In this document: positions 55,166 to 62,933 of the stretch, in pieces
Layout of the letters: every line of letters starts with the position of its first letter
How positions within the stretch are numbered: position 1 is the first letter of the stretch
Source: an uncultured Ruminococcus sp.
GTDB lineage: Bacteria > Bacillota > Clostridia > Oscillospirales > Ruminococcaceae
Direction of reading: 5' to 3'
NCBI RefSeq assembly: GCF_946415235.1
Contig: NZ_CAMKRR010000007.1
Coordinates: 1-64,000 of the forward strand
Length of the DNA: 64,000 bases
Position numbers and translations under genes: made by a program
Notes under the pieces: generated by a model
Told to the model about the DNA's origin: nothing
The model's input: only the letters and a program-made list of their open reading frames with translations
The model's database searches: none

Positions 55166-55969
55166 ATGAGGATCGAAAATATAGCTTCAGGTCATAAAAG
55201 AGAGCGGAATTTCTGCTTTGAGCGCAGAGACGGCGCAGGTTTATGGCTTCTTCTCGTTGTGAAAGCAAAAACGATATTTACTATCGGTGACAAGGAAATA
55301 CCTTCACCCGAACATTCCTTTATACTGCTCACTCCCGAGCAGCCCTTCAGCTACCGCAGTGATGACGTTAGCTTCGTTGAGGACAGCATCAGCTTTATTC
55401 CTACCGCCGATGAGATACAGCTCATAAATGAGCTCAATATACCGCTGAACAAGGTGGTCCCTGCCGCGGAGCTCTCGCAGATGTCGGCAATGATACAGAG
55501 CATGAGCCTTGAATACTACTCCTCCAACAAAAACAGAGACGAGTCCATCGACCTCTATTTCAGGCTGCTGCTCCGCAAACTCAACGAAAGCGTTTCCGAC
55601 CTGAGAAGATTCAACACCGTTCATGAGGGGCTTTACGTTGAAAAGCTCCTGTGGCTACGTGAGAGTATATACCGCTGGCCGTCAAAAACATGGACTATCG
55701 ACGAAATGGCTGCGGAAATATCGCTCAGCCGTTCAAGGCTTCAGCATCTCTACACCGAGACCTTCGGCATAAGTATATCAAAGGATATAATCAACAGCCG
55801 TCTCGACAAGGCTGCCGAGCTTCTCAAAATGCCCGAGTACTCAATAAATAAGATAGCCGAGCTTGTCGGATACCCGAACGCTTCGTACTTCAACAGACAG
55901 TTCAAGAACGGACTTGGTATGACGCCTACGGAATTCCGCAGGGAATGGCAGGAAAAAGAAGCAATATAA
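55166..55969 (+). CDS. AraC-family transcriptional regulator
   Basis: A 267-residue regulator. The N-terminal part (1-150) is a cupin-like sensing domain and the C-terminal part (about 168-262) holds two helix-turn-helix motifs (TIDEMAAEISLSRSRLQHLY in part; INKIAELVGYPNASYFNRQFK in part) with the final GMTPTEFRR. It follows GGAGG and is divergent from the pyridoxal kinase operon, which it may control. Confidence 0.92.
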   Translation: MRIENIASGHKRERNFCFERRDGAGLWLLLVVKAKTIFTIGDKEIPSPEHSFILLTPEQPFSYRSDDVSFVEDSISFIPTADEIQLINELNIPLNKVVPAAELSQMSAMIQSMSLEYYSSNKNRDESIDLYFRLLLRKLNESVSDLRRFNTVHEGLYVEKLLWLRESIYRWPSKTWTIDEMAAEISLSRSRLQHLYTETFGISISKDIINSRLDKAAELLKMPEYSINKIAELVGYPNASYFNRQFKNGLGMTPTEFRREWQEKEAI

Positions 55970-55980
55970 AAAAGCATCGT

Positions 55981-56010
55981 CCCCTTACCTTTTTCGGTAA
56001 GGGGATATTT
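55981..56010 (+). terminator. Terminator of the AraC gene
   Basis: A 9-bp stem CCCCTTACC/GGTAAGGGG with a 6-nt loop and ATATTTT after it. Confidence 0.8.
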
Positions 56011-56079
56011 TGTCATACACTTTCTCAGCCCGATACCTCATAAAAAACTTGAAAAAATAAAAATCTGTGTCTTTTCCTA

Positions 56080-56108
56080 TTGCAATTATTCGGATATTGT
56101 TGTATAAT
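56080..56108 (+). promoter_or_regulatory. Promoter of the MBOAT-DHHW-FkbH-ACP operon
   Basis: TTGCAA and TATAAT with 17-bp spacing. The transcript would have a ~130-nt AT-rich leader before the MBOAT start; I see no gene in it. Confidence 0.7.
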
Positions 56109-56244
56109 TGATAATATAGCATATTTATGTGCTGATATAAAAATCAGAAAAACAGATATATTTAATATGATTTTTATTGCTGCGACTGCTTTTACGCGGT
56201 AAAAAAGATATATACAAACAATTGCAGCAAGGCGGTAGAACAAA

Positions 56245-57645
56245 ATGGTATTTTCGAGACTATTCTTTATATATATATTCCTCCCTGTCTGCCTGTTGTG
56301 CTATGCACTGGCAAGAGGGACTAAACATAAAAATACGGTGTTGATCATTTTCTCGCTGATTTTTTATGCCTGGGGTGAGCCCGTTTATATTTTCCTGATG
56401 CTTGCAACAGCTGCGGTGAACTATACAGCCGCTCTTTTCATAGGGAAATATCAGGGCAAGGTCGGAGATACTGCCGCGACGATTACCGCTGTGGTGTACG
56501 ACCTTCTCATGCTCGGCGTATTCAAATACAGCGGCTTTATCTTGGAAAATATCAACGCCCTTTTTTCATCTTCGCTGCCTGTACCCGATATACGGCTGCC
56601 CATAGGTATAAGCTTTTATACCTTCCAGACTATCTCCTACATTATCGACTGTCACTGGGAAAAGGTAAAGCCTCAGAGGAGCTTCAAGGATTTCCTGCTG
56701 TTTCTCACGCTCTTTCCCCAGCTCATCGCAGGTCCTATCGTAAGGTACAGCTCCATTGAAAAGGAAATAAACGAACGCACCATCAGCATGAGCGACGTTT
56801 CATACGGTCTGAACCGTGTCGCCCTCGGTCTTGCAAAAAAGGTACTTCTTGCCGATCAGCTCAGCCTTATCGCCGAAAGCTTCCTCGGCAACATAGGCGG
56901 TTCGACTATGCTTGGTGCATGGTACGGTGCAATAGCCTATGCGATGCAGATATATTTCGATTTTTCGGGATATTCCGATATAGCCATCGGTCTCGGCAGA
57001 GTATTCGGCTTCCACTTTGATGAAAACTTCGATCATCCCTTTATGTGCAGGGACATCACGGAGTTCTGGCAGCGCTGGCATATCTCACTGGGTACATTTT
57101 TCCGCGATTATCTCCTTTATGTACCTATATTCGGAAAGCGCAGGAAATACGGCGGGCTCTTCCTCGTATGGCTCTGCACCGGTATCTGGCACGGCGCAAA
57201 CTGGAACTACATAATATGGGGGCTTTACTACGGGCTTTTCATATTCATCGAGCTCCTTATCGGAAAGAAAAAGATGAAAGTCATCCCCGTTTTCATTCGT
57301 CATATCTACAGCAAGTTTATTATAATAATAGGCTTTGCCATCTTTTACTTTGAGGACCTCGGGAAGCTTGGCACTTTCTTCAAAACCGCCTTCGGCTTCG
57401 GCAAAAATGGCTTTATCGCAGTGCAGGACAAGATATCCTTCGTAAACAATATCTTTCTTATAGCTGCGGCTGTGATATGCTGCTTCCCGCTTATACGAAG
57501 CATTAAAGACATTACGGACAGACGCTTTGCCGCAAAGGCGACAATGTCCTCGGCAGCTGCTGTGGTTTCCGCGCTGCTGCTTGTCATAACGAGCATCATA
57601 CTTGTTGATGCCACGACTTCCCCATTCCTTTATTACCAATTCTGA
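56245..57645 (+). CDS. MBOAT-family membrane O-acyltransferase (AlgI/DltB-like)
   Basis: A 466-residue polytopic membrane protein (about eleven helices). The family motifs are FYTFQTISYIIDCHW, FWQRWHISLGTFFRDYL in part, and the catalytic His motif WHGANWNYIIWG. MBOAT proteins of this type (AlgI, DltB, PatA) carry acyl groups across the membrane to wall polymers or exopolysaccharide. It is the first gene of the operon; the ribosome-binding site is weak (AAGGCGG). Confidence 0.92.
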   Translation: MVFSRLFFIYIFLPVCLLCYALARGTKHKNTVLIIFSLIFYAWGEPVYIFLMLATAAVNYTAALFIGKYQGKVGDTAATITAVVYDLLMLGVFKYSGFILENINALFSSSLPVPDIRLPIGISFYTFQTISYIIDCHWEKVKPQRSFKDFLLFLTLFPQLIAGPIVRYSSIEKEINERTISMSDVSYGLNRVALGLAKKVLLADQLSLIAESFLGNIGGSTMLGAWYGAIAYAMQIYFDFSGYSDIAIGLGRVFGFHFDENFDHPFMCRDITEFWQRWHISLGTFFRDYLLYVPIFGKRRKYGGLFLVWLCTGIWHGANWNYIIWGLYYGLFIFIELLIGKKKMKVIPVFIRHIYSKFIIIIGFAIFYFEDLGKLGTFFKTAFGFGKNGFIAVQDKISFVNNIFLIAAAVICCFPLIRSIKDITDRRFAAKATMSSAAAVVSALLLVITSIILVDATTSPFLYYQF

Positions 57646-57660
57646 CAAGAGGAACATAAA

Positions 57661-59124
57661 ATGAGCAAGAACAAAAAGAATTCGGATGCGGAAACAGATA
57701 AAAACATATCCGCTGAGACAAACAAACGCCCCGAGCCTGCTATTTCCATAGAAGCTTCGGACCGTCAGGGAGCGTCCATAGATATCCCCATAAAGGCAAA
57801 AAAGTCGAAAAAGCTTCGCCGTAAAGCAGCAATGAACAATATATCCCTCGCAAATATACTTCTTCTCGGTGCTGTTTTTGCGGGAGGCTTCACATATGTC
57901 ACACTTTTTCCCCATGAGACAAAAGCCGATGATGAGAACCGCTATCTCGCAGCTTTCCCGAAATTCAGCATAAAAGCTTATACAAGCGGTGATTTCACCG
58001 ACGGTGTCGCCGATTATTTTGATGATACGGTCCACGCAAGAGCCGATATCAAGCAGTTCATAGCAGATACGCTCATGCCGCTGAAGGGCATGAAGTACGG
58101 CGGAGAAAAAGCCGAGCTTTACGGAAAAGGCTTTGAAAAGCCCGTAACGACTGCAGCAGCAGCTTCAACTGCTCAGAGGACAACTGCAACCACCACGCAG
58201 ATGCAGACTACCACAACGACAGAGCCCGCGGAAGATACGGCTGCCGACGGAGAGCTCACAAACAATATCCTCATCGTCAACAAGCGCGGAGTGAACCTCT
58301 ACGGCGGCGCATGGGGCACGGAACAGGAATATGCTTCGTATCTCAACGCCTACAAGGAAGCTCTTCCCGATGTGAATATCTATTCAATGGTACTCCCGAC
58401 TGCAAGCTCTTTCTATCTGCCTGATGAATACAAAGACCTCTCTCAGAGCGAAAAAGAGGACTTTGACAGGATAGAAGCAGCTCTCGGCAACATTATGTCC
58501 ATTGACGCATACACACCTCTTGAAGCCCATAAGGACGAGCCTATCTACTCACGCACCGATCATCACTGGCAGCCGCTTGGCGCTTACTATGCCGCACAGC
58601 AGTTCGCCCTGACAGCAGGTGTCCCTTTCCCGGATATTTCCGAGTACGAAAAGGTAACTCTCCCCGGATATGTGGGAACGCTCTATATGTACACCCAGAG
58701 CGCTACTCTCCTGAACAATCCTGAGGACTTCGTATACTACAAGCCAAAGACCAATGTCAGCGTGACACAGTATGATACTCACTTCGGCAATCCTGTAGCC
58801 GCAGATCTGCTCCTTGATCCGTCACAGATGCCGAACTCGGGATACTACATGGTATTCGGCTCCGATGAAAGGATAGTCCACGTAAATACCGAGTGCAAGA
58901 ACGGCAGAAATCTCGTAATATTCAAGGACAGCTACGGAAATGCTCTGCTGCCGATGCTTACGGGCTCATTTGAGAATATCTATCTCTGCGATATCAGGTA
59001 TTTCGACCTCAATGCCGCAGAGTTCATAAAAAATGTTCAGGCCACCGACCTGCTTTTCACTATGTGCTCCTTCTCGGCAGTTGGAGTCAACAGACACTGC
59101 ATCTACAATAACCTGATAAAATAG
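57661..59124 (+). CDS. DHHW/AlgJ-like exported protein, partner of the MBOAT acyltransferase
   Basis: A 487-residue protein with a charged cytoplasmic start (1-60), one membrane helix (about 64-80), an extracellular region, a Thr/Ala-rich linker (about 160-195) and an SGNH-like domain with the motif TDHHWQPLGAYYA (about 299-311). DHHW/AlgJ/AlgX proteins finish acyl transfer outside the membrane in pairs with MBOAT proteins. It lies 15 bp after the MBOAT gene behind GAGGAAC. Confidence 0.88.
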   Translation: MSKNKKNSDAETDKNISAETNKRPEPAISIEASDRQGASIDIPIKAKKSKKLRRKAAMNNISLANILLLGAVFAGGFTYVTLFPHETKADDENRYLAAFPKFSIKAYTSGDFTDGVADYFDDTVHARADIKQFIADTLMPLKGMKYGGEKAELYGKGFEKPVTTAAAASTAQRTTATTTQMQTTTTTEPAEDTAADGELTNNILIVNKRGVNLYGGAWGTEQEYASYLNAYKEALPDVNIYSMVLPTASSFYLPDEYKDLSQSEKEDFDRIEAALGNIMSIDAYTPLEAHKDEPIYSRTDHHWQPLGAYYAAQQFALTAGVPFPDISEYEKVTLPGYVGTLYMYTQSATLLNNPEDFVYYKPKTNVSVTQYDTHFGNPVAADLLLDPSQMPNSGYYMVFGSDERIVHVNTECKNGRNLVIFKDSYGNALLPMLTGSFENIYLCDIRYFDLNAAEFIKNVQATDLLFTMCSFSAVGVNRHCIYNNLIK

Positions 59125-59132
59125 GAGATAAA

Positions 59133-60938
59133 ATGAAAGAACTCAGCTTTCCTTTTGACAGTAAAAATATTATACGCCGCAGCCCCGCTCTCCGAAAGCA
59201 GCTCCTTTCAGACGGGAGTACGCGCATAAAAAAGAAGGTCGCTGTGCTCGGCGGTTCCACAACAGATCATATTATCGCTTCTCTTGAACTTTTCCTGCTG
59301 AACTTCGGCATAGAGCCCGAATTTTATCAGTCAGGATACAATAAATTCTACGAGGACGCCGTTTTCGGCGATCCTAAGCTGGACAGCTTTGCTCCCGATA
59401 TCATATATATCCACACGACCTTGCGGAACATCACAAAGCTCCCGTCAGTTCCTTCTGTCAAGGCAGAACAGGTCACGAACGACCTCAACGAACAGTTCGA
59501 GCTGTTCAGGCAGGTATGGGAAAGCCTTATGAAGCGCTTTGACTGTCCCATAATACAGAACAACTTCGAGCTGCCGCTTTTCAGGCATACAGGAAGCTAT
59601 GACTGCTGGAGCACCACAGGTCATGCCGCATTCATTGAAAGACTGAATGTTATGTTCTCGGATTATGCACGTTCGGTCAGCGGTCTGTATATACACGATA
59701 TCAATTACCTTTCCGCTGTCTGCGGACTTACAAACTGGCATGACTCAGAAGCATGGTATATGTACAAATACGCCATGAGCACCTCTGTCATTCCCGACCT
59801 TGCATACAGTCTTGCCTGCATGATAAAGTCGATCTACGGCAAAAACCGTAAGGTCATTGATCTTGATCTCGACAACACCCTCTGGGGCGGAGTCATCGGC
59901 GATGACGGTCAGGACGGCATAGAAATAGGTCCCGAAACTGCTGTAGGACAGTCTTTCACGGAGTTTCAGAGCTTTATCAGAGGATATAGAGACTATGGCA
60001 TACTCCTTGCCGTATGCTCAAAAAATGATGAAGAAAATGCACTTCTCGGCCTTGAACACCCAAGCAACGTGCTTAAAAAGACGGATTTCGTATCCATAAA
60101 GGCAAACTGGGAGCCAAAAGACAGAAATATCGCCGAATCGGCACAGGAGCTCAGCCTCGGGCCTGACAGCTTCGTTTTTATAGACGATAATCCTGCGGAG
60201 TGCGCTATCGTTGAAGGACAGCTCCCCATGGTACAGACCGTAAGCTTCAGCAGCGTCCATGAAGCAATGTACAAGCTCACCCGCAGCGGATATTTCGAGG
60301 TGACAGCCATTTCCGACGACGATCTTCACCGCTCGGAAATGTATGCCGCAAACGCTCTGAGAGCCGCTCAGCAAAAGAGCTTCGGCAGCTATGAGGACTA
60401 TCTTGTGAGCCTTGAGATGCAGGCGGTTATCTGCGATTTCAAGCCTGTATACATACAGCGTATCACTCAGCTTACAAATAAGAGCAATCAGTTCAATCTG
60501 ACTACACGCCGTTACAGCGAGAATGAGATACAGGCAGTCAGTCAAAGTACGGATCATATCTGCCTCTGCGGCAGACTTATTGATAAATTCGGCGACAACG
60601 GCATAGTTTCCGTAGTTATCGGCAGGATCGACGAAGATATCCTCCATATTGAGCTCTGGCTCATGAGCTGCCGCGTCCTCAAAAGGGATATGGAGCTTGC
60701 AATGCTTGATGAGCTTGTACGCCATGCAAAAACGGCAGGTATCAGGATCATAAAGGGATACTACTACAGATCACCGAAAAACAGCATGGTCTCGGAGTTT
60801 TACGGCTCACTCGGCTTTGTACTCGATGAAAAGTCGGAAAACGGCGATTCCGTATGGCATACAGAAATTGAAAACTACAAAAACAAAAATAAAGTTATCA
60901 GGATAACAGAAAAGGAGCATCATAATGAAAACAAATGA
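59133..60938 (+). CDS. FkbH-like HAD-IIIC protein with SGNH-like N-terminus and GNAT-like C-terminus
   Basis: A 601-residue cytoplasmic protein. Residues 25-230 resemble an SGNH-like domain (VAVLGGSTTDH). Residues 240-380 form the HAD-IIIC domain (DLDLDNTLWGG, VCSKNDEENA, WEPKDRNI, FIDDNPAE). Residues 420-590 form a GNAT-like domain (TNKSNQFNLTTRRY). FkbH enzymes dephosphorylate 1,3-bisphosphoglycerate and load glycerate onto an acyl carrier protein. The carrier gene starts inside the 3' end of this gene, which supports that role here. The actual acyl group is inferred. Confidence 0.88.
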   Translation: MKELSFPFDSKNIIRRSPALRKQLLSDGSTRIKKKVAVLGGSTTDHIIASLELFLLNFGIEPEFYQSGYNKFYEDAVFGDPKLDSFAPDIIYIHTTLRNITKLPSVPSVKAEQVTNDLNEQFELFRQVWESLMKRFDCPIIQNNFELPLFRHTGSYDCWSTTGHAAFIERLNVMFSDYARSVSGLYIHDINYLSAVCGLTNWHDSEAWYMYKYAMSTSVIPDLAYSLACMIKSIYGKNRKVIDLDLDNTLWGGVIGDDGQDGIEIGPETAVGQSFTEFQSFIRGYRDYGILLAVCSKNDEENALLGLEHPSNVLKKTDFVSIKANWEPKDRNIAESAQELSLGPDSFVFIDDNPAECAIVEGQLPMVQTVSFSSVHEAMYKLTRSGYFEVTAISDDDLHRSEMYAANALRAAQQKSFGSYEDYLVSLEMQAVICDFKPVYIQRITQLTNKSNQFNLTTRRYSENEIQAVSQSTDHICLCGRLIDKFGDNGIVSVVIGRIDEDILHIELWLMSCRVLKRDMELAMLDELVRHAKTAGIRIIKGYYYRSPKNSMVSEFYGSLGFVLDEKSENGDSVWHTEIENYKNKNKVIRITEKEHHNENK

Positions 60939-61167
60939 AATAATCCCCCGTCTTAACGAAGTTTTCAGGGACGTTTTCGGTGACAGCAGCATTTCGGTCA
61001 CAGAAAAAACCACCGCAGACGATATCGAGGACTGGGACAGTCTCGCACATATCAGTCTTGTAGCCGCAGTCGAAGCCGAATTCGGCTTACGCTTCAAGAT
61101 GAGAGAGGTCTCCGCAATGAAAAACGTCGGAGATATGATAAACCTAATAGCCGAAAGAGGCAGATAA
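60925..61167 (+). CDS. Acyl carrier protein (operon-specific)
   Basis: An 80-residue four-helix carrier with the phosphopantetheine site DWDSLAH (Ser39). It overlaps the FkbH-like gene by 14 bp and the next gene by 1 bp (TAATG), with AAAAGGAG before its own start. As a DltC-like or FkbH-partner carrier it should hold the activated acyl group for the MBOAT protein. Confidence 0.92.
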   Translation: MKTNEIIPRLNEVFRDVFGDSSISVTEKTTADDIEDWDSLAHISLVAAVEAEFGLRFKMREVSAMKNVGDMINLIAERGR

Positions 61168-62009
61168 TGTCAAAAAAGCTCAAAAAGAGGCTGATCATCG
61201 CCGCAGTTCTGCTTGTCATGGCCGCACTGTCAGCATGGGGCTTTGCAATGGAAACCGTACGATATAAAGTTAGTTCGGACAAGCTTGACAGCGTTATCAA
61301 AATAGTATTCATCTCCGACCTGCACAATTGCTTTTACGGAGATACAAAGCAGTCAAAGCTCATACAGGAAGTCAAAAGCAGCTCTCCCGATATCGTCATT
61401 TTCGGAGGAGATGTGATTGATGCATGGGGAGGTACAAAATACGCTCTGCTCCTCATAAAAGAGCTGAGCAAGGATTATCCCTGCTTCTATACTCCCGGCA
61501 ATCACGAGCAGGAGCGCGATGACAAGGAAGAGTTTTACGCGAAAGTGCAAAAGCTCTGTCCCATGCTTCTCGGTGAGTATGAGCAGATAAGCATAAACGG
61601 ACAGGATATACGTATTTACGGTACTCTTGACAACTACTCATTCGGAAAGAAGAAAACTCAGCTTGAGGAATGCTTTGATACTCTTGATGATAAGTATTAC
61701 AATATACTTATCGCTCATCAGCCCGAGCAGATAGACAGCTACATCGGCAAAGGAAAAGGTTACGACACAAAGTTCGACCTTATCCTTTCGGGACACGCTC
61801 ACGGCGGACAATGGAGGATACCGAAGCTGCTGGATCAGGGCTTATATGCTCCCGATCAGGGGATCTTTCCCGATTACACAACGGGTATGTATGAATATGA
61901 CGGAACGACTCATATCATAAGCCGAGGCCTTGCAAGACCGATGCGAATGATATTTATCCCACGTATTTTCAACCGTCCCGAATTATCCGTCATTACAATA
62001 GGGCAATAA
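61167..62009 (+). CDS. Membrane-anchored metallophosphoesterase (YkuE-like)
   Basis: A 280-residue calcineurin-like phosphoesterase with an N-terminal membrane helix (about 8-28). The metal motifs are ISDLHNC, GGDVIDA, GNHEQE and SGHAHGGQW. It is coupled to the acyl carrier gene. It might release a phosphate product from a lipid-linked intermediate; the substrate is not shown by the sequence. Confidence 0.9.
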   Translation: MSKKLKKRLIIAAVLLVMAALSAWGFAMETVRYKVSSDKLDSVIKIVFISDLHNCFYGDTKQSKLIQEVKSSSPDIVIFGGDVIDAWGGTKYALLLIKELSKDYPCFYTPGNHEQERDDKEEFYAKVQKLCPMLLGEYEQISINGQDIRIYGTLDNYSFGKKKTQLEECFDTLDDKYYNILIAHQPEQIDSYIGKGKGYDTKFDLILSGHAHGGQWRIPKLLDQGLYAPDQGIFPDYTTGMYEYDGTTHIISRGLARPMRMIFIPRIFNRPELSVITIGQ

Positions 62010-62051
62010 TGATTTCTTATACGCAAGCTGTTACCCATACTAAAAAAACAC

Positions 62052-62080
62052 TTGTAATTTTACATTAATAATGGTATAAT
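62052..62080 (+). promoter_or_regulatory. Promoter of rlmB
   Basis: TTGTAA and TATAAT with 17-bp spacing. Transcription would begin near 62087, so an in-frame ATG at 62079 cannot be the start of RlmB. Confidence 0.7.
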
Positions 62081-62153
62081 GAAAATATCGTTTCCTCGAC
62101 GGAAATATGCTGTAAAATCCATAAATATACAGAACAAAAGGAGCCTGGGCATT

Positions 62154-62933
62154 TTGAGCCCTATGTTGAATATGGAAAAAGATAAAAATACAACCGAAAA
62201 AAACGAAAACCTGATCTGCGGCAGAAATCCCGTCATCGAGGCGCTGAGATCAGGCGCTAATATAGATACCGTCTACATAAACGGCAATGGCGGCAGTCTC
62301 GGTCTTATCCGAAAGCTCGCAAAGGAAAACGGTATCGTGGTAAAAGACGCAGACGATAAAAAGCTTTCAAAGCTCTGCGGCGGAGCTTCTCATCAGGGAG
62401 TTGCTGCCGAAGGTGCCTGCGGAGAATACGTCACTGTTGAGGATATCCTCGAAGTTTCACGCAGAAAAGGCACAAAGCCATTCATCATCATCTGCGACGA
62501 GATAGAAGATCCTCACAACCTCGGAGCTATCATACGTACTGCCGAGACCTCGGGCGCTGACGGCGTTATAATCCCAAAGCGCAGGAGCGCTTCCCTTAAT
62601 GCCACTGTTTTCAAGACATCGGCAGGCGCTGCGAGCTATGTTCCCGTTGCAAGAGTTTCAAACATTGCTTCATGCATCGACACTCTCAAGGAGAACGGCG
62701 TATGGATATACGGAACCGACGCTTCGGGCACCGATTACACAATGACAGACTTCACAGGCGGAGCTGCGCTTGTTGTCGGCTCTGAAGGCTTCGGTATGAG
62801 CCAGCTCGTTCAGAAGAAATGCGATTTTATGATAAAGCTTCCGATGCTCGGAAAGATCAATTCACTCAACGCTTCGGTAGCGGCAGGTATATTCATGTAC
62901 GAAATACTGCGTCAGCGCAGAAGCACTAATTAA
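62154..62933 (+). CDS. rlmB: 23S rRNA 2'-O-methyltransferase RlmB (TrmH/SpoU family)
   Basis: A 259-residue SPOUT enzyme with an N-terminal L30e-like domain (CGRNPVIEALRSG) and the knotted domain motifs NLGAIIRTAE, VVGSEGFGMS and LNASVAAGI. It methylates 23S rRNA or a tRNA site. The start is uncertain: TTG 62154 lies 10 nt after AAAGGAG, and ATG 62163 follows closely. Confidence 0.9.
   Translation: MSPMLNMEKDKNTTEKNENLICGRNPVIEALRSGANIDTVYINGNGGSLGLIRKLAKENGIVVKDADDKKLSKLCGGASHQGVAAEGACGEYVTVEDILEVSRRKGTKPFIIICDEIEDPHNLGAIIRTAETSGADGVIIPKRRSASLNATVFKTSAGAASYVPVARVSNIASCIDTLKENGVWIYGTDASGTDYTMTDFTGGAALVVGSEGFGMSQLVQKKCDFMIKLPMLGKINSLNASVAAGIFMYEILRQRRSTN

Follow-up and report, generated by a model that had tools for sequence, protein, structure and literature searches.

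A probable Dlt-like acylation operon of Ruminococcus in which an FkbH protein would load the carrier with glyceryl

How is an acyl carrier protein (ACP) charged in an operon that pairs a membrane acyltransferase with an SGNH-type partner and contains no DltA-like ligase? This question is raised by positions 56245-62009 of a 64,000-nucleotide stretch of contig NZ_CAMKRR010000007.1 from an uncultured Ruminococcus sp. (the whole of which is here called the window). Ester groups on wall polymers such as teichoic acids determine the charge of the cell surface and its interaction with the host, and the best-known machinery adds D-alanyl or acetyl groups. An initial annotation had proposed a Dlt-like pathway with an MBOAT/SGNH pair, a dedicated carrier and an FkbH protein in the place of DltA. 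Our analysis suggests that 56245-61167 is probably such a surface O-acylation system, in which FkbH rather than an ATP-using ligase would load the carrier with glyceryl. That the carrier feeds MBOAT/DHHW acylation is highly likely; that the acyl group is glyceryl is likely, judging from the family chemistry of homologues. The following features are involved:

56245..57645, + strand: MBOAT membrane acyltransferase, 466 amino acids (Pfam, DltB structure match, H279 and H316)
57124..57144, + strand: MBOAT residues 294-300, PIFGKRR, in the segment from RWH to WHG, corresponding to the DltC-binding helix of DltB, at the place taken by P[LMI]GG in MBOATs that have no carrier gene nearby
57661..59124, + strand: DHHW-family SGNH acyltransferase-like protein, 487 amino acids (Pfam, PDB matches, motifs)
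59133..60938, + strand: FkbH protein, 601 amino acids, with FkbH_N, HAD and C-terminal parts (TIGR01686, FkbH_N)
60925..61167, + strand: acyl carrier protein, 80 amino acids, with S39 in WDSL (PF00550), overlapping the FkbH gene by 14 bp
61167..62009, + strand: calcineurin-like metallophosphoesterase (PF00149), overlapping the carrier gene by 1 bp, judged not to be core

The genes run head to tail, followed by rlmB (62079-62933), with spacings in gene order of +15, +8, -14 and -1 bp, and then +69 bp before rlmB. The tight packing of five open reading frames (ORFs), with 14-bp and 1-bp overlaps around the carrier, is thus as first described. By eye, purine-rich, ribosome-site-like stretches precede most of the start codons.

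The MBOAT protein matched its family profile clearly (PF03062; 89 bits, cut-off 27), and the only solved structure that it matched at E <= 0.001 was DltB (6bug/8jem, E 4e-26). The family histidine H279 was present in 67 of 69 aligned MBOATs, and H316, which aligns with the WHG of DltB, in all 69. The DHHW protein scored 133 bits with PF14286 (cut-off 25) and 33 bits with ALGX. In the PDB it matched 4nzk (E 9.8e-82) and PatB1 of Bacillus cereus (E 1e-7), whose KDS, DXRY and DHHW blocks have roles described in the available part of PMC9487903. A hydrophobic stretch was seen by eye at its N-terminus. Its own motifs are KDS (S424), DIRY at 444-447 (D444, R446) and DHHW at 300-303; S424 and H302 were kept in 36 of 36 DHHW proteins, as were D444 and R446.

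Known FkbH proteins such as OzmB use 1,3-bisphosphoglycerate as substrate and carry the glyceryl group on a cysteine. The window protein scored 284 bits with TIGR01686 (curated cut-off 146.65) and also matched FkbH_N (PF21211). In a tree of 120 FkbH rows, from which proteins of at least 1300 amino acids were left out, 93 rows formed one envelope-type group (support 100), with 27 other FkbH outside; 10 rows with a NeuB-type neighbour were divided, 6 outside this group and 4 inside. All 92 envelope-type FkbH and all 27 others have the HAD residues D245, D247, S296, K329, D351 and D352. C513, in the C-terminal part, was present in 91 of 91 envelope-type proteins (plus one gap) and in all 27 others; it is the probable acyl-accepting cysteine. 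C295 of the HAD domain (in CSKND) was rejected as acyl carrier, being a cysteine in just 30 of 92. The proposal had been made to hang on use of the HAD catalytic residues; these are retained and may be in use. The only PDB match by sequence was 3slr (residues 26-370). An AlphaFold2 model built from 43 aligned rows (mean pLDDT 88.7) retrieved the same protein, BF1531, with Foldseek (TM 0.90 by target), followed by many GNAT acyltransferases. We infer that the GNAT matches correspond to the C-terminal part of the model, the output giving no ranges.

The ACP exceeded the PF00550 cut-off (23.4 bits versus 20.8), and its phosphopantetheine-site serine, S39, was present in 78 of 78 aligned ACPs. Its best solved match was the putative acyl carrier protein 2lml (E 2e-16), presumably a specialised Geobacter ACP. 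The genome encodes one phosphopantetheinyl transferase.

We asked how regularly these genes occur together. A scan of one genome per species gave 193 stretches and 153 confirmed FkbH relatives, the best 80 of which were counted, with gene content taken from profile searches of all ORFs on any strand. An ACP gene was present in 66 of these 80 loci, an MBOAT gene in 53 and both in 51; in 60 loci the ACP gene was the next gene after FkbH, in the same orientation. DHHW, phosphoesterase and MaoC genes were present in 33, 16 and 14 loci, respectively. Where both flanks were long (42 loci), MBOAT was found in 31 and ACP in 34. The 80 loci span records of Ruminococcus, Pseudobutyrivibrio, Gemmiger, Acutalibacter, Lachnospiraceae and Erysipelotrichaceae, and also metagenome-assembled genomes (MAGs) labelled Synergistaceae and Flexilinea, labels that may be wrong. 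The closest named relatives of the window FkbH are from Ruminococcus, at 85% (a water-buffalo omasum MAG) and 74-78% (four R. flavefaciens strains), so that the window probably comes from the R. flavefaciens group.

In an even sample of the class (291 genomes, the window's included), FkbH exceeded the TIGR01686 cut-off in 35. The 46 matches outside the window's genome were all covered by 43 stretches, 12 of which belonged to the window's FkbH subfamily (scoring above 600 bits against a profile built from the 80). MBOAT and ACP accompanied FkbH in 11 of these 12; on the twelfth (L145), a contig of 4.2 kb, only pieces of DHHW were present. The 31 loci of other FkbH types contained MBOAT in 3 cases and ACP in 9, and several adjoined AMP-ligase-type or NeuB-type genes; 6 of the 46 matches lay inside open frames of 2,221-4,261 amino acids. 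MBOAT is present in 186 of the 291 genomes, mostly in 1-4 copies, and we therefore estimate that one would lie within ~17 kb of a locus by chance in about 1-2% of cases. The gene grouping is well above chance, and the genomic co-occurrence that the initial annotation called for was found (51/80; 11/12 in the class sample for MBOAT with ACP).

Does the MBOAT draw its acyl group from a carrier or from coenzyme A? In DltB of S. thermophilus, a horizontal helix binds DltC via M302, V305, I306, M309, K312 and R317 (available part of PMC11035591). These residues fall between the RWH and WHG histidine motifs, and this segment was compared across MBOATs. MBOATs without a carrier gene, meaning that none was found in the 2.7-6.5 kb fetched, had the element P[LMI]GG in all 50 readable cases (51 in all). 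In contrast, it was present in only 1 of 78 MBOATs beside a carrier gene: 0 of 34 beside FkbH and ACP with a DHHW partner, 1 of 29 beside FkbH and ACP with other partners (L122), and, in a set fetched as an independent check, 0 of 15 beside an AMP-ligase and carrier. When the 51 control stretches were searched with profiles, none contained a carrier, AMP-ligase or FkbH gene, apart from a single FkbH hit at E 0.074. Another MBOAT of the window's genome (C54), with a GDSL-like neighbour, keeps PLGG.

The controls comprised 31 MBOAT loci (30 that included L001 of the window's genome, plus L003, whose segment was not readable) and 20 chosen from genomes without an FkbH match. The strict pattern PLGG was present in 46 of the 50 and was widened to P[LMI]GG after controls L204, L207, L213 and L216 read PMGG or PIGG. 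Most of 20 further AMP-ligase or Dlt stretches were chosen for a nearby DltA-family match and six for weak or split MBOAT matches; an MBOAT was present in 19, and ligase together with carrier in 15. Three of these 15 (L189, L190, L191) had been chosen for weak MBOAT matches, and L190 and L191 read PLGK, a near miss of P[LMI]GG. L184, whose carrier was recognised by a later profile, stands outside the 15 and likewise lacks the element. Four FkbH-linked rows with no ACP seen (L074, L101, L127, L139) were excluded from the 78; L101 keeps PLGG, and the segment of L074 was not readable with the pattern used.

The segment differs in length as well. In the window MBOAT clade it has 44 residues, with [PT][ILV]FGK replacing PLGGN. 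In the other FkbH-linked MBOATs it is mostly 64 residues long and contains a basic insert, as is the case for 10 of the 15 MBOATs beside an AMP-ligase and carrier; in MBOATs beside DltA-like ligases it has 54-55 residues. In a tree built without the segment columns, the 34 MBOATs with FkbH and DHHW, the window's among them, formed one clade (support 100), and none of the unlinked MBOATs used fell into it. In a 98-row tree from all columns, the nearest outside rows of this clade were the unlinked L174 and L175, both with PLGG. Fisher's test of motif against carrier gave p 4.6e-35, ignoring kinship. In a 136-row MBOAT tree, carrier linkage requires 8 changes; in a kinship-aware test, with 81 of 131 rows carrier-linked (an AMP-ligase neighbour sufficing), six independent pairs were available, in which the motif changed in step with carrier linkage in 5, in the reverse sense in 0 and did not differ in 1 (p 0.0625). 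Thus, the association is strong in counts and repeated over lineages, with few independent events and modest kinship-aware support.

These observations are consistent with the following route. From the chemistry of its family, FkbH would take the acyl-phosphate of 1,3-bisphosphoglycerate, a glycolytic intermediate, and its HAD domain would remove the other phosphate; no ATP-using ligase would be needed. The glyceryl would then be handed on, probably by way of the invariant C513, to the phosphopantetheine of the adjacent ACP. Gene linkage and the changed dock suggest that the carrier, once loaded, binds to the MBOAT on its cytosolic side, as DltC binds DltB. By analogy with homologues, the acyl group would cross the membrane through the action of the MBOAT; the DHHW protein, anchored in the membrane and extracytoplasmic, would then attach it to a hydroxyl group on a polysaccharide of the wall or surface.

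The likeness to the Dlt system lies in an MBOAT, an SGNH-type partner and a dedicated carrier of ~80 residues in one operon; here, however, FkbH replaces DltA and the partner is DHHW instead of DltD. The best match to the DltA model in this genome (E = 1.3e-33) was not over the 559.85-bit cut-off, so that the reported absence of a DltA-like ligase holds genome-wide as far as this test reaches. The window MBOAT scored 152 bits with the DltB equivalog model, below its 375-bit cut-off, and at E <= 0.001 the ACP matched no DltC model of NCBIfam. Because no DltA was found and the DltB equivalog cut-off was not reached, our verdict, from sequence, is that the system would work like Dlt yet is not a member of it. 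The DltA cut-off is strict and was passed by only 2 of the 291 class genomes.

PatA1/PatB1 of B. cereus, which O-acetylates the secondary cell wall polysaccharide, is the same type of two-protein pair, and the KDS, DXRY and DHHW motifs of PatB1 are kept. Differently from that pair, the window adds FkbH and a carrier, and its MBOAT is without the P[LMI]GG of carrier-less MBOATs (PatA1 being outside this comparison). With the FkbH-ACP units of tetronate and methoxymalonyl-ACP pathways the operon shares the adjacent ACP and the invariant HAD residues and cysteine; here, in contrast, the partner is a membrane acyltransferase pair, and the neighbours searched include neither a condensing enzyme nor a tailoring oxidase. 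Clostridial operons with an AMP-ligase, carrier, MBOAT of ~530 residues and SGNH protein (L182, L185, L193) likewise place MBOAT/SGNH beside a carrier and have no P[LMI]GG, but their MBOAT segment is mostly of 64 residues, like that of other FkbH-linked MBOATs, as against 44 in the window. Such operons were seen in L182-L198, with a stand-alone AMP-forming ligase, a carrier of 75-79 residues (e.g. L182:2772-3002) and an SGNH protein of type c9. Two of these carriers were scanned and resemble DltC weakly; presumably they are loaded by the AMP-forming ligase.

Several other explanations were weighed. The carrier might feed MBOAT/DHHW acylation with FkbH loading something other than glyceryl, such as another small hydroxyacid or a phosphoglycerate kept phosphorylated. 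This would fit the separate, fully supported group of 93 envelope-type FkbH rows and C-terminal residues that differ from those of other FkbH (N449 versus Q/V/L/I, T458 versus G/T, E521 versus E/G). However, conservation of C513 and of the HAD phosphatase residues is as complete as in other FkbH, a point in favour of unchanged dephosphorylation and transfer, and we consider this alternative unlikely. Less probable still is an ordinary O-acetyltransferase fed by acetyl-CoA that merely shares an operon with FkbH and ACP making a separate product, such as a glyceryl-sugar precursor or small metabolite. Unlinked MBOAT/DHHW pairs are indeed common in the class, the available part of PMC9487903 describes PatA1/PatB1 as an O-acetylation pair, and some FkbH-ACP loci (L096, L103) have nonulosonic-type genes and no MBOAT. 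Yet MBOATs beside FkbH, ACP and DHHW are without the P[LMI]GG seen in all 50 readable unlinked ones and constitute a clade of their own, and further FkbH-linked MBOATs have a longer segment like that of MBOATs with an AMP-ligase and carrier.

Use of glyceryl-ACP in a tetronate-like or other small-molecule pathway would agree with the description of FkbH and ACP as the glycerate-loading pair of tetronate clusters (available part of PMC4979870). It appears very improbable here, as no condensing enzyme, polyketide synthase or nonribosomal peptide synthetase was found among the seven ORFs searched (55166-62933), and the window FkbH stands apart from the 27 other FkbH on the tree (FkbH within frames of at least 1300 amino acids being left out).

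Some observations weigh against glyceryl-loaded, carrier-fed acylation. An ACP gene was missing from 14 and an MBOAT gene from 27 of the 80 FkbH loci, and short flanks could account for only 6 and 16 of these, respectively; with 8 of the 42 long-flank loci lacking ACP and 11 lacking MBOAT, a real minority lacks one or both. In Pseudobutyrivibrio (L058, L060-L062, L080; L079 is cut), FkbH lies beside an ABC transporter with no ACP and no MBOAT. The MBOAT of L122 keeps PLGG despite an ACP, those of L127 and L139, on short contigs where no ACP was seen, are without P[LMI]GG, and correction for the tree leaves the motif test at only p 0.0625. In the window MBOAT, the residues by which DltB is described to bind DltC are not conserved and the segment is shorter (44 residues versus 54 in the DltB type), so that docking is suggested by the change in the segment, not by a shared motif. 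The identity of the FkbH substrate rests on homologues. No acceptor polymer gene lies beside the operon. The proposal of Dlt-like acylation with a dedicated carrier and FkbH for DltA is supported in its four-gene part by recurrence, intact catalytic motifs in all four proteins and a changed donor-side element of the MBOAT; the phosphoesterase drops out.

The metallophosphoesterase scored 63 bits with PF00149, and its nearest NCBIfam models, YaeI and LpxG, both remained under cut-off. It had been counted as a member of the system, which its distribution does not bear out: it was present in 16 of the 80 loci, and while 26 of 35 genomes of the genus carry an orthologue (at least 290 bits), 9 of these 26 have no FkbH. 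Moreover, 3 of 20 same-genus genomes with a strong FkbH match (G015, G025, G028) had none, some genomes being incomplete. The phosphoesterase was rejected as part of the acylation system on this basis and is judged a lineage-limited syntenic neighbour.

The partners of FkbH and ACP vary. Besides DHHW, they include a GDSL-like protein, c9 (Lipase_GDSL_2, 26 bits, under cut-off), and a 333-residue protein, c38 (L078), with no meaningful Pfam match. An SGNH fold for c38 was tried and set aside, the AlphaFold2 model being unusable (mean pLDDT 53). FkbH and ACP also occur with an Acyl_transf_3 protein (L063), with a WcbI-family protein (L051) and, without MBOAT, with genes that read as NeuA/B/C-like (nonulosonic-acid) in L096 and L103; loci with Acyl_transf_3, WcbI-family or NeuB-type genes also include L104, L105, L109, L111 and L121. 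The presumed glyceryl-ACP module may thus feed several kinds of surface-glycan acylation. In Gemmiger (L074, L101), FkbH lies beside SGNH and MBOAT genes, with no carrier gene seen in the stretch. In the Pseudobutyrivibrio loci, L079 included, it is flanked by a protein of ~660 residues (c25), for which two members scanned gave no Pfam match, and an ABC-2 permease.

In L067, L078, L090, L091, L094 and L134, the next genes after ACP encode a MaoC protein and an SDR (one representative of each was scanned: MaoC 62 bits, L051; SDR 125 bits, L100). Dehydration and reduction of glyceryl-ACP by such proteins would give lactyl-ACP; the bryostatin loading module has reportedly been read in this way. 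In other loci, a Glyoxalase_4 protein near methylmalonyl-CoA epimerase (42 bits versus 114.95) adjoins FkbH or ACP and might epimerise C2. These genes suggest lactyl or epimerised variants in some relatives.

With regard to the acceptor, the genome has no match to the TagB/TagF-type family (PF04464), one sulfatase-family match and three LCP-family matches. One LCP (LytR_cpsA_psr) gene (G000:C7:65529-66938) begins 3.5 kb past the phosphoesterase gene, beyond rlmB and a protein of 841 residues with no Pfam family. Judging by size, order and sequence start, the 841-residue protein and LCP belong to clusters c6 and c7; each cluster recurs in 16 of the 80 loci. An LCP-attached wall polysaccharide as acceptor is a reasonable guess, no more.

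Upstream of the operon lies an AraC-type regulator gene (55166-55969), which adjoins the operon in just one of the 80 loci (L024), several loci being truncated on the upstream side. Three further features match consensus only, and promoter-like sites are frequent in the region (18 found versus 10.2 expected):

55979-56006: terminator-like hairpin, before the MBOAT gene and its promoter-like site
56080-56108, + strand: promoter-like site TTGCAA-17-TATAAT, upstream of the MBOAT gene
62052-62080: promoter-like site ahead of rlmB

In the open-licence literature searched, we found no description of an MBOAT-DHHW-FkbH-ACP acylation system, nor any paper on FkbH with polysaccharide glyceryl groups or O-antigen, or on HAD-IIIC with an acyl carrier protein and polysaccharide. 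The available parts of papers joining FkbH and MBOAT concern aeruginosin-type natural products, and those joining FkbH and glyceric acid concern natural products. It is possible, and we put it forward tentatively, that the operon represents a class of surface-polymer acylation not described before, which is widespread among Bacillota of the gut and rumen and draws glyceryl-ACP straight from glycolysis without an ATP-using ligase. MaoC with SDR (lactyl) or the methylmalonyl-CoA-epimerase-like protein (the other glyceryl isomer) would be plug-in modifiers. Such a module would feed at least two MBOAT lineages: the window's, with P[LMI]GG rebuilt in place, and another with the longer segment that matches MBOATs of AMP-ligase and carrier operons.

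A glycerate-loading version of wall-polymer acylation would mean an acyl supply that tracks glycolytic flux, in fibre degraders of the rumen (the Ruminococcus flavefaciens group) and in other gut bacteria. The most valuable part of the analysis is the signature that separates MBOATs with and without a carrier gene. It bears on the donor question in MBOAT/SGNH systems, coenzyme A or a carrier protein, which may be predictable from sequence: if the reading as an undescribed class is true, the P[LMI]GG element would tell carrier-fed from CoA-fed MBOATs.

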